DNA from: Pandoraea pneumonica
GTDB lineage: Bacteria > Pseudomonadota > Gammaproteobacteria > Burkholderiales > Burkholderiaceae
DNA: 64,000 nt
Reading direction: 5' to 3'
Assembly: GCF_902459645.1 (NCBI RefSeq)
Contig: NZ_CABPSK010000007.1
Location: 1 to 64,000, forward strand
In this document: positions 58,069-60,568 of the stretch, piece by piece
Position numbering within the stretch: the first letter of the stretch is position 1
Layout of the letters: each line of letters opens with the position of its first letter
The notes under the pieces: generated by a model
Told to the model about the DNA's origin: nothing
The model's input: only the letters and a program-made list of their open reading frames with translations
Databases searched by the model: none
Translations under genes and position numbers: made by a program

Positions 58069-58182
58069 TCAATAGCGATAGCAGCACGGGTGTCCGTAAT
58101 AACCCCCGTAATACGGCCGAGCCGGAACCACGACGCATCCGGCGAGCGTGACGGCAAGCAATGCAGCAACGAGCAACTTCAT
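58069..58182 (-). CDS. 37-residue lipoprotein, Tyr/Gly-rich
   Basis: An ATG-to-TGA frame of 37 codons. The first half is a textbook lipoprotein signal, MKLLVAALLAVTLAGC, with Cys16 as the lipidated residue. Val-Val-Val-Pro follows, then a short Tyr/Gly tail with YYGGYYGH and a Cys-Cys pair. GGAG lies six bases before the ATG. The mature part is only 22 residues. It is too short for usual gene callers. The function is unknown. The Tyr/Gly-rich tail resembles small envelope-stress lipoproteins. Confidence 0.75.
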   Translation of the reverse strand: MKLLVAALLAVTLAGCVVVPARPYYGGYYGHPCCYRY

Positions 58183-58306
58183 GATCTGACTCCAGATGAA
58201 AAGGAACCTGCGGGAGCGCGAGTCCGTTCGATTCCTTTATATCTTTGGCCTGATCCGAAGCCCATCACGCGTCTGTAAGCCGTGTAAGCGAAGGTTGCCA
58301 AACGGG

Positions 58307-58333
58307 CAAAGTGTCGCACTTTGTTACGTAACA
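58307..58333. promoter_or_regulatory. Two adjoining perfect palindromes, putative enhancer site
   Basis: CAAAGTG-TCG-CACTTTG (58307-58323) and TGTTACGTAACA (58322-58333) abut, with a further GTAACA half-site at 58351-58356. They lie about 120-147 bases upstream of the predicted sigma-54 start, the usual distance for an enhancer-binding protein. Confidence 0.5.
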
Positions 58334-58427
58334 TGCGGCGGAACAACGCCGTAACACGCCAGCAACCGCTCACACCCACCTATCCGGAAACCCAATAACG
58401 ACGCGGGTTTGCGATTTCCACGACGAC

Positions 58428-58443
58428 TGGCACAAGGCTTGCA
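58428..58443 (+). promoter_or_regulatory. Sigma-54 (RpoN) promoter
   Basis: TGGCAC-AAGGC-TTGCA matches the consensus TGGCACG-N4-TTGCW at every fixed base except the G at position 7. GG and GC dinucleotides are 10 bases apart, as required. The predicted start is about 58454. Confidence 0.65.
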
Positions 58444-58452
58444 TAGTCTTAG

Positions 58453-58534
58453 ATGCCGCACTCTCAATTGCCCCGAAGAGCGCGGCATTGATGTCAGCCT
58501 CCTCCCGCGACTGACGTGGGAGGAGGTCTTTTTT
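58453..58534 (+). ncRNA. Putative sigma-54-dependent small RNA (~80 nt)
   Basis: The predicted transcript starts at the 5' base of a stem-loop: ATGCCGC (58453-58459) pairs with GCGGCAT (58482-58488), and inside it CTCT (58461-58464) pairs with AGAG (58477-58480). This leaves a 12-base loop, CAATTGCCCCGA. A 9-base single-stranded stretch and a Rho-independent terminator follow. There is no ribosome site and no open frame of meaningful length. The C-rich loop could pair with Shine-Dalgarno sequences. I know of no matching RNA family. Confidence 0.55.
58498..58534 (+). terminator. Rho-independent terminator of the putative small RNA
   Basis: CCTCCTCCC (58498-58506) / GGGAGGAGG (58518-58526), a perfect 9-bp stem, then TCTTTTTT. 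Confidence 0.88.
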
Positions 58535-58870
58535 CCGACACGCCTCAGCGTCATTTCTTCTGCACCGTTCGCGTGCAAATCCCCTCGTATTGCCAATTCA
58601 TCTGAGCGTTTGAAATGTATTGACGCTATAACAGCGTCGACATCGCGCCTGTTTCATTTATCTTTAAATCTTTATTCGGCGCGGCTTTCCGGGTGTTTTG
58701 GCCTTTCGCGGCAAAAACAACATGCGGGTAGCCACTAATCTCAAGTTGACTTTCCAACTGTCGTAATCGCGTCTATAGAGGAGTGCGCGTCAACTCCTGG
58801 GCGACGCAAAAAATCCTTTTCGTGACGGCCGCACGACACGCGCCGGGGCAAGCGTATCAGGGAGAAGGTC
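58535..58870 (+). promoter_or_regulatory. Upstream region of the chemoreceptor operon
   Basis: No gene. GACGCT-ATAAC-AGCGTC (58622-58638) is a perfect dyad. CTCAAGTT, 12 bases, then GTCGTAAT near 58739-58766 loosely resembles a sigma-28 flagellar promoter. GGGAGAAGG lies just before the chemoreceptor ATG. Confidence 0.35.
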
Positions 58871-60568
58871 ATGGAAATCGCCACGCCTGAATTCCAAATG
58901 GAACAGCAGGAACTACAGGCCATCAGCGCCGCACTCAACCGCGTACAGGCGGTCATCGAGTTCGATTTGCAGGGCCGCGTCATGCATGCAAACGACAATT
59001 TCTTGCAGACGCTCGGTTACCGGCTCGACGAAATTCAGGGGCAGCACCATCGCATGTTCTGCGAGCCCGACTACGCCGCTTCGCAGGCCTATCGCGATTT
59101 CTGGGCGAAGCTCGGCCGCGGCGAATTCGACTCGGGCGAGTACAAGCGCGTCGCCAAGGGCGGCCGAGACGTGTGGATTCGCGCCTCGTATAACCCGGTG
59201 TTCGATGCCAACGGCGTGCCGTACAAGGTGATCAAGTTCGCCACCGACGTCACTGCCGAGCGCGCCCGCCAGGCGGAGTTCGAGAGCAAAGTGCGGGCGA
59301 TGGATCTGGCGCAGGCGGTCATCGAGTTCAATCTCGACGGCACCGTCACCAAGGCCAACGACAACTTCCTCAAGACGCTGGGCTATTCGTTCGACGACAT
59401 CAAGGGCAAGCATCACCGCATGTTTTGCGAGCCCGACTATGCGGCGTCCGACGTCTATCGCGAATTCTGGGCCAAGCTCAATCGTGGCGAATTCGATTCG
59501 GGCCGCTACAAGCGGATCGGACGCGGCGGGCGCGAAGTCTGGATTCAGGCGACCTACAACCCGATCCTCGACATGAACGGCCGCCCCTACAAGGTGGTGA
59601 AGTTCGCGACCGACATTACGCAACAGGTCGAACTCGAAGCCAGCGTGAAACGCCGCGCCGAAGAAGACCAACGCAAGGTTGCCGCCCTGCTGAACACCGT
59701 GAATCGCGCGGCCGCGGGCGATCTGACCGGTGACATCCCCGTGAGCGGCACCGACCCGATCGATCAGTTAGCCGAAGGCATCCGTCACATGATGGACGAC
59801 CTGCGCGGCGTGATCGGCAAGGTGGTGAATTCCGCTGGCGAGTTCTCGGGCGCCTCGCGCGACATCGCCGAGCGTGCCAACACTGTGGCTACCGGAGCAC
59901 AGGCTCTGGGCGCGACGGTCGAGGAAATGAACGCGTCTATCGAAGAACTGACCGCATCGATCAACTCGATTGCCGACAACACCAAGGGCGCCGACCAGCT
60001 CGCCAAGGCCACGCAGCAGGAAGCCGAGACCGGCGCGCGTGCCATCGCCCGCTCTGTCGAAGCGATGGAATTGATCAATAAGTCGTCGGAAGACATCAGC
60101 GAAATCGTCAAGGTGATTGGCGAAATCGCCGGTCAAACCAACTTGCTGGCGTTCAACGCCGCCATCGAAGCGGCACGCGCCGGTGAGCATGGCCTGGGCT
60201 TCTCGGTGGTGGCAGACGAAGTGCGCAAGCTTGCCGAGCGCTCGTCGCAGGCCACCAAGGAAATCTCGAAGCTCATCAACGAGTCGACCAAGCGCGTGGC
60301 ACAAGGCAGCGAAGTGTCGAAGCTGGCGGGCGATGCCTTCGAGAAGATCGTCGGCGGCGTGTCGCGCACGACGCAGGCGATCTCCGAAATCTCGTGCGCC
60401 GCGGAAGAACAACTGGTGGCCGCACGCGAAGTGAGTTTGGCGATTCAGCACGTGGCCGAAGAGACCGAGAAGTCGGCGGGCGCGTGCGAGACCATCGCGC
60501 AAGCCACGTCCGGGCTCACCCAGGAGGCCGAGGCACTCGACCAAACCGTGTCGCGCTTCAAGGTCTGA
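58871..60568 (+). CDS. Soluble double-PAS methyl-accepting chemotaxis protein (BdlA-like)
   Basis: A 565-residue chemoreceptor without membrane spans or periplasmic domain. Two PAS domains (about 14-130 and 136-252) are close copies of each other: both carry the same [13 protein letters not shown] block and FATD ending. The signalling region (about 300-555) has the conserved hairpin tip [20 protein letters not shown]. BdlA of Pseudomonas, with PAS-PAS-MCP and no span, controls biofilm dispersal; the resemblance is in architecture. It starts a run with cheR, cheD and a triple-CheW gene. Confidence 0.9.

Follow-up and report, generated by a model that had tools for sequence, protein, structure and literature searches.

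The intergenic region between a short divergent lipoprotein-like open reading frame (ORF) and a chemoreceptor gene of Pandoraea pneumonica raises the question of whether it harbors a dedicated regulatory RNA, how such an RNA would be switched on and on which message it might act. The locus was analyzed in its 64-kb window (the whole stretch of 64,000 nucleotides) and by comparison with other genomes. We read it as a new family of RpoN-dependent, base-pairing and non-coding small RNA (sRNA) of about 81 nt, to which we assign a probability of roughly 0.75. The features on which the argument draws are as follows.

58069-58182, minus strand: divergent lipoprotein-like ORF of 37 aa that shares the upstream region (lipoprotein by reading of the signal)
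58322-58333, no strand assigned: palindrome TGTTACGTAACA, a possible enhancer site whose left arm does not vary across the 25 aligned loci
58351-58356, plus strand: second GTAACA box, a possible enhancer half-site that lies 21-23 bp away from the first
58428-58443, plus strand: predicted sigma-54 (-24/-12) promoter TGGCACAAGGCTTGCA, an exact consensus match; core identical in 26/26 loci
58454-58534, plus strand: predicted small RNA, ~81 nt, ends predicted (fold, alignment of 25 loci, covariance model, 26/32 genomes)
58455-58486, plus strand: 5' hairpin with the 9-nt loop AAUUGCCCC and proposed seed UUGCCCCG (consensus structure and pair counts)
58497-58534, plus strand: predicted intrinsic terminator (CCUCCUCCC...GGGAGGAGG, then a U-rich tail), from a terminator scan; compensatory changes at two pairs
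58741-58766, plus strand: sigma-28-like promoter of the chemoreceptor gene; same pattern in 24/26 loci
58844-58851, plus strand: leader segment CGGGGCAA of the chemoreceptor message, complementary to the loop UUGCCCCG; present in 22/26 loci
58871-60568, plus strand: chemoreceptor (PAS, PAS, HAMP and MCPsignal by domain search), candidate target

Promoter, fold and boundaries of the predicted unit

The first-pass annotation had claimed a near-consensus -24/-12 promoter, and this element in fact matches TGGCACNNNNNTTGCW exactly, with no second exact match within the window. When one mismatch is allowed, two matches are found in the window versus 2.4 expected, so that on its own the motif does not exceed what chance would give. 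It is conservation that raises the unit above chance: a DNA search of 32 Pandoraea genomes found it in 25 and a covariance model in one more, and none of the nine core promoter bases (TGGCA and TTGC) varies in any of the 26 loci. The spacing from -24 to -12 is likewise fixed in 26/26, as expected of the GG/GC elements of sigma-54 units, and the distance from promoter to RNA core is 42 or 43, while identity over the 25 aligned loci is 0.65 in the promoter spacer and 0.52 in the 15 bp upstream. In the genome of this strain (5.85 Mb), TGGCAYNNNNNTTGCW has 24 exact matches versus 9 for the reversed control; 14 of the 23 others overlap open frames by a rough filter, and several of these directly precede a start codon. 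The same genome has an rpoN gene, and from gene and promoter together we consider control by RpoN very likely. Another exact sigma-54 element of this genome (L159 position 1501, G000:C2:50280) directly precedes a chemoreceptor-like gene, named by reading.

By the distance rule from the -12 C (58442) to +1, transcription is predicted to start 12 bases further on, at ~58454. This position coincides with the foot of the 5' hairpin, as the annotation had it in placing the start at the first base of a stem-loop. The 82 nt from 58453 to 58534 fold at -42.6 kcal/mol, versus -23.9 (sd 3.2) for shuffled sequences (z -5.8), and none of 200 shuffles folds as well. The strong Rho-independent terminator claimed about 80 bases downstream is found as a stem of 13 pairs (58497-58527) followed by a T6 run ending at 58534, giving a unit of ~81 nt; the number of terminator-like sites in the region shows no excess (2 versus 2.4 expected from shuffles). 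The 5' arm of the terminator stem, CCUCCUCCC (58498-58526), resembles an anti-Shine-Dalgarno sequence and is buried in the predicted fold. An inverted repeat, GACGCTATAACAGCGTC, lies at about 58623-58640, between terminator and receptor gene.

Over the 25 aligned loci, column identity is 0.95 in the 5' hairpin, 0.98 in its loop (the most conserved part of the RNA) and 0.91 in the terminator stem, versus 0.655 in the next 65 bp. Pair statistics were taken on 21 distinct sequences. Standard pairs occupy 99.1% of pair cells, and 99.6% in the terminator stem; three pairs are changed on both sides, with compensatory changes present in both stems, so that the paired positions are conserved as the annotation would require. 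The covariation score is above that of all shuffles (0/500 reach it), and when the partners are slid as a control, pairing falls to 49-69%. Of five measures used for pair support, two do not rise above the shuffles, namely pairs changed on both sides (reached in 128/500) and the number of pair types (362/500). Since relatedness alone can lift sequences above such shuffles even where there is no structure, we rest the structure on the sum of the evidence. Taken across genomes, this comparison establishes the predicted promoter, structure and unit boundaries, and we infer from them that the unit would be transcribed.

The statement that no reading frame or ribosome site lies within the unit has to be amended in its first part. 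A 12-codon ATG...TGA frame at 58453-58491 spans the hairpin exactly in this genome, and frame and stop are kept in several other loci by eye, as would be expected if the unit were translated, without a leader, into a very short peptide. The position of the start codon, however, reads ATG in three, GTG in four and TTG in one of the 26 loci, thus offering a start in only eight, and GCG in 13. The compensatory changes fit the stems, and no ribosome site is seen by eye. As the start codon is not conserved, the conclusion that no protein is made stands, and we consider such a peptide extremely unlikely. With an independent unit, an intrinsic terminator, a conserved structure and no conserved ORF, the locus shares these properties with trans-acting base-pairing sRNAs, in keeping with the dedicated non-coding RNA that had been proposed from the fit of promoter, hairpin and terminator.

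Distribution of the unit and comparison with known RNAs

The covariance model was built from the alignment of the 25 loci found by DNA search, and the 26th copy, in G028 (P. terrae by eye), is a divergent one that scores 48 bits. In all 26 loci, and thus in 26 of the 32 Pandoraea genomes, an intact copy and the same promoter precede the same receptor gene. Among 398 genomes of the family, searched with strict filters, 29 have a match at E <= 0.01: the 26 with intact copies, two Pandoraea whose only matches are weak ones at other places (27-28 bits), and a single genome outside the genus, whose match of 33.1 bits resembles by eye the terminator only. In some of the sRNA-bearing genomes there are additional weak hits, either on the strand opposite the unit or at other places. 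A search of 399 genomes of the order with strict filters, a set that overlaps in part with the family genomes, matched the genome of this strain and five others, those five at 27-31 bits. Outside Pandoraea, no match above about 33 bits was thus obtained in the 398 family and 399 order genomes, and a plasmid search gave no match. As far as searched, the putative sRNA is restricted to the genus.

P. terrigena (G029; loci L073 / L204) carries a decayed copy that lacks promoter and terminator, with promoter, core and terminator all decayed by eye and the receptor gene remaining. Promoter, hairpin and terminator of the predicted unit are conserved together as a single block, and both the promoter and the RNA are decayed in this one genome, which offers a natural loss for comparison. 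In G021 the upstream region of the lipoprotein-like gene is kept, with no sRNA and no receptor within the 0.9 kb covered, and G018, G023, G025 and G030 have no match to the unit or to the upstream region.

A second copy of the sRNA was considered for extra matches in five genomes and rejected, as these are likely due to chance and lie, by reading, in sense orientation inside the coding sequence of an ABC-transporter ATPase. In these five Pandoraea genomes (L026-L030, near position 1501), a LivF-like gene carries on its coding strand 22-35 nt that match loop and 3' arm (85-100%), with a best E of 1e-5; the genome of this strain has no such match at the search threshold. The likeness may reflect origin, mimicry or chance.

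Known sigma-54-dependent sRNAs form a small class, and GlmY of Escherichia coli can be driven by sigma-54. None of the families of Rfam 15 matches the window at the gathering cut-off, and the highest score of a permissive scan is 20.1 bits, where the cut-off is 74. The lowest E-value of that scan (0.052, 17.2 bits) belongs to P11 (RF00625); it arises mainly from a promoter-like TGGCAC...TGCATAGT stretch in the model, whereas the RNA part aligns poorly and the score is far under the gathering score of 70. The Pandoraea sRNA has no Rfam match to GlmY or to the Qrr family, with both of which it was compared through Rfam only. Qrr1 of Vibrio fischeri is, like the unit proposed here, a sigma-54-dependent sRNA driven by enhancer-binding proteins (PMC10162802). 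NrsZ of Pseudomonas aeruginosa is described as an sRNA of 226 nt under NtrB/C (PMC6321483), whereas no NtrC-type site is recognised at the Pandoraea locus by the NtrC consensus. NcS25 is an 84-nt sRNA of Burkholderia, Paraburkholderia and Pandoraea, which in contrast to our unit lies at a different locus, adjoining a porin gene, and for which its authors saw no upstream sigma-54 motif (PMC10117139). In the titles and abstract openings listed for the literature on Pandoraea small RNAs, Burkholderia RpoN and sRNAs, NrsZ/P11, P11 with RpoN, CbrB sites and sigma-54 sRNAs, the RNA described here is not reported.

The comparison with CrcZ bears on how the RNA would act. This sigma-54-type sRNA of 407 nt sequesters Hfq (PMC6321483), and the Pandoraea unit could analogously be a real sRNA that serves as a decoy for Hfq or another RNA-binding regulator, or as a mimic of another RNA, in place of pairing with messages. 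The match of loop and 3' arm to the LivF-like coding strand, a gene named by reading, could be taken in the same sense. Against this, the unit is only ~81 nt long, has a single conserved loop and shows by eye no motif that recurs, and the LivF-like match lies in coding sequence, is missing from this genome at the threshold and may be chance. We therefore regard a decoy as unlikely, and base pairing in trans through the conserved loop as the probable mode of action.

Upstream boxes and candidate activators

The region upstream of the promoter contains two conserved GTAACA-type boxes, for which GTAACG, GTTACA and GTGACG were allowed as variants. The 21-23 bp between the two boxes correspond to about two helical turns, and the second box precedes the -24 element by 76-78 bp (14 loci) or by 65-67 bp (12 loci), two classes that are one helical turn apart. 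As this shift is possibly a single ancestral indel, it is modest evidence. The arrangement suggests that of an enhancer, and the boxes are candidate sites for an activator. In crcZ and crcY, the subsites of CbrB are the hexamers TGTTAC and GTAACA, and neighboring subsites are separated by 20-25 bp and face the same side of the helix (PMC6296734). CrcZ and CrcY thus share with the Pandoraea unit a dependence on sigma-54, here predicted, as well as the same hexamers and a similar spacing. In contrast to the CbrB sites, the forward box in Pandoraea directly abuts the first reverse box, and CbrAB is described as exclusive to Pseudomonads (PMC6296734).

The palindrome TGTTACGTAACA occurs exactly once in the genome of this strain and once more with one mismatch, versus five per strand for its reversed control; as the control is commoner with one mismatch allowed, the motif is not enriched genome-wide. 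It is kept in two genomes without an intact sRNA (P. terrigena and G021), whereas the second box is lost in the former and altered in the latter. Because the palindrome is kept where the sRNA is decayed or gone, it may belong to, or be shared with, the divergent lipoprotein-like gene. The region upstream of that gene (58230-58333) is very conserved, including the direct repeat TGTAAGCCGTGTAAGC and TTTGTTACGTAACA, and is kept where the sRNA is lost. A site for IHF between enhancer and promoter was matched, by the IHF consensus, in 0/25 loci.

Nine strong matches to enhancer-binding proteins are encoded in the genome, two further weak ones (28 bits) being left out; names were given by reading of the sequence, except for VpsR (Pfam). 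The receiver-type activators seen are an NtrC-like one (by reading) and a DctD-like one (receiver domain). Six of the nine have close orthologs (66-95% identity) in the sRNA-bearing genomes G017, G028 and G020. Since the same six are also found in G021 and P. terrigena, presence and absence single out no activator. Close orthologs of a second PrpR-like protein and of a V4R-type protein are missing from all three sRNA-bearing genomes checked, and those of an AcoR-like protein from two of the three. A scan for GTAACA and TGTTAC over 220 bp upstream of each of the 23 further exact sigma-54 matches in the genome gave nothing but one lone TGTTAC; the sigma-54 promoters of prpB-like, TorF-like porin, dctA-like and AmtB-like genes (names by reading) are among those without boxes. 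No pair of boxes was found in 13-14 kb around four candidate activators, and none of the activators of this genome could be matched to the GTAACA-type boxes.

The chemoreceptor as neighbor and candidate target

A BdlA-like chemoreceptor operon had been named as the neighbor, and this holds: BdlA-like is a fair label for the architecture of the receptor with its two PAS domains, and the genes that come next are cheR, cheD and one that encodes three CheW domains. The closest relatives of this receptor in named genomes are from Pandoraea. This constant neighbor admits another reading of the unit, as a sigma-54-driven leader or attenuator of the operon, from which read-through would feed the receptor gene 337 nt downstream. 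The same gene indeed follows in 26/26 loci, at a distance from loop to start codon of 297-459 nt. The sigma-28-like promoter, assigned by the sigma-28 consensus, follows the terminator in 24 of the 26, however, and the receptor therefore appears to have its own start. The near-complete pairing of the terminator stem and the low identity of the 65 bp beyond it also speak against a leader. We consider a leader or attenuator quite unlikely and retain the independent sRNA.

The leader of the receptor message does, on the other hand, contain a possible site for that sRNA. CGGGGCAA lies 20-27 nt before the start codon, and the duplex of leader and loop is calculated at -20.1 kcal/mol; in this genome, CUCUC of the sRNA also pairs with GGGAG of the Shine-Dalgarno sequence. 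Among 50 genes of the window, the receptor counted with them, its duplex ranks first, and it is stronger than that of any of the 61 genes called in further loci of the genome; the 111 gene starts were called by a simple script, with some calls probably wrong. The 8-nt match turns up in 2.2% of leader shuffles that preserve dinucleotides, and 38 of 6394 60-mers of the window contain one. When internal structure is counted, the interaction amounts to -4.7 kcal/mol, which is matched by 9/300 shuffles and 12/300 genomic 90-mers. In four of the 26 loci (L016, L024, L025 and L205), CGGGGCAA is altered or absent while the seed is kept, and in three loci a change in the loop leaves 7 pairs. Target site and loop show no co-variation, native duplexes averaging -17.80 versus -17.77 for mismatched species pairs. 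We regard the chemoreceptor message as a plausible target and the best candidate found, an assignment that is tentative.

Other targets were sought in three genomes with the 14-base complement of the loop, allowing up to two mismatches. Matches number 63, 55 and 55, versus 17, 21 and 12 for the reversed-pattern control, but the sRNA itself and coding sequence are also among the hits. Among the 30 of these 173 matches that were given as loci, there was no convincing site at a start codon.

Our data are consistent with the following course of events. Sigma-54 RNA polymerase would bind at 58428-58443, and an enhancer-binding protein seated on the GTAACA boxes, which lie some 98-132 bp ahead of the start, would open the polymerase complex. 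Transcription would run from the base of the 5' hairpin to the intrinsic terminator, with Hfq probably, as a putative partner, on the U tail. The exposed loop UUGCCCCG would act as seed in pairing with the ribosome-binding regions of target messages, and in this genome CUCUC of the sRNA could also cover the GGGAG Shine-Dalgarno sequence of the receptor, such that a cell under the sigma-54 signal would make less receptor. In its most specific form, the model is a riboregulatory switch on chemotaxis peculiar to Pandoraea, in which an activator other than CbrB at CbrB-like TGTTAC/GTAACA boxes would drive a genus-specific sRNA, whose loop and 5' arm would cover the leader and Shine-Dalgarno sequence of the adjacent PAS receptor. 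This full version we consider doubtful. If true, the sigma-54 program of the sRNA and the sigma-28 program of the receptor would meet at one message.

Pandoraea includes opportunistic lung pathogens. The sRNA described here has clean comparative evidence, is small enough for full testing and lies outside the Rfam families. If the chemoreceptor is its target, sigma-54 would be linked to chemotaxis at the level of RNA.
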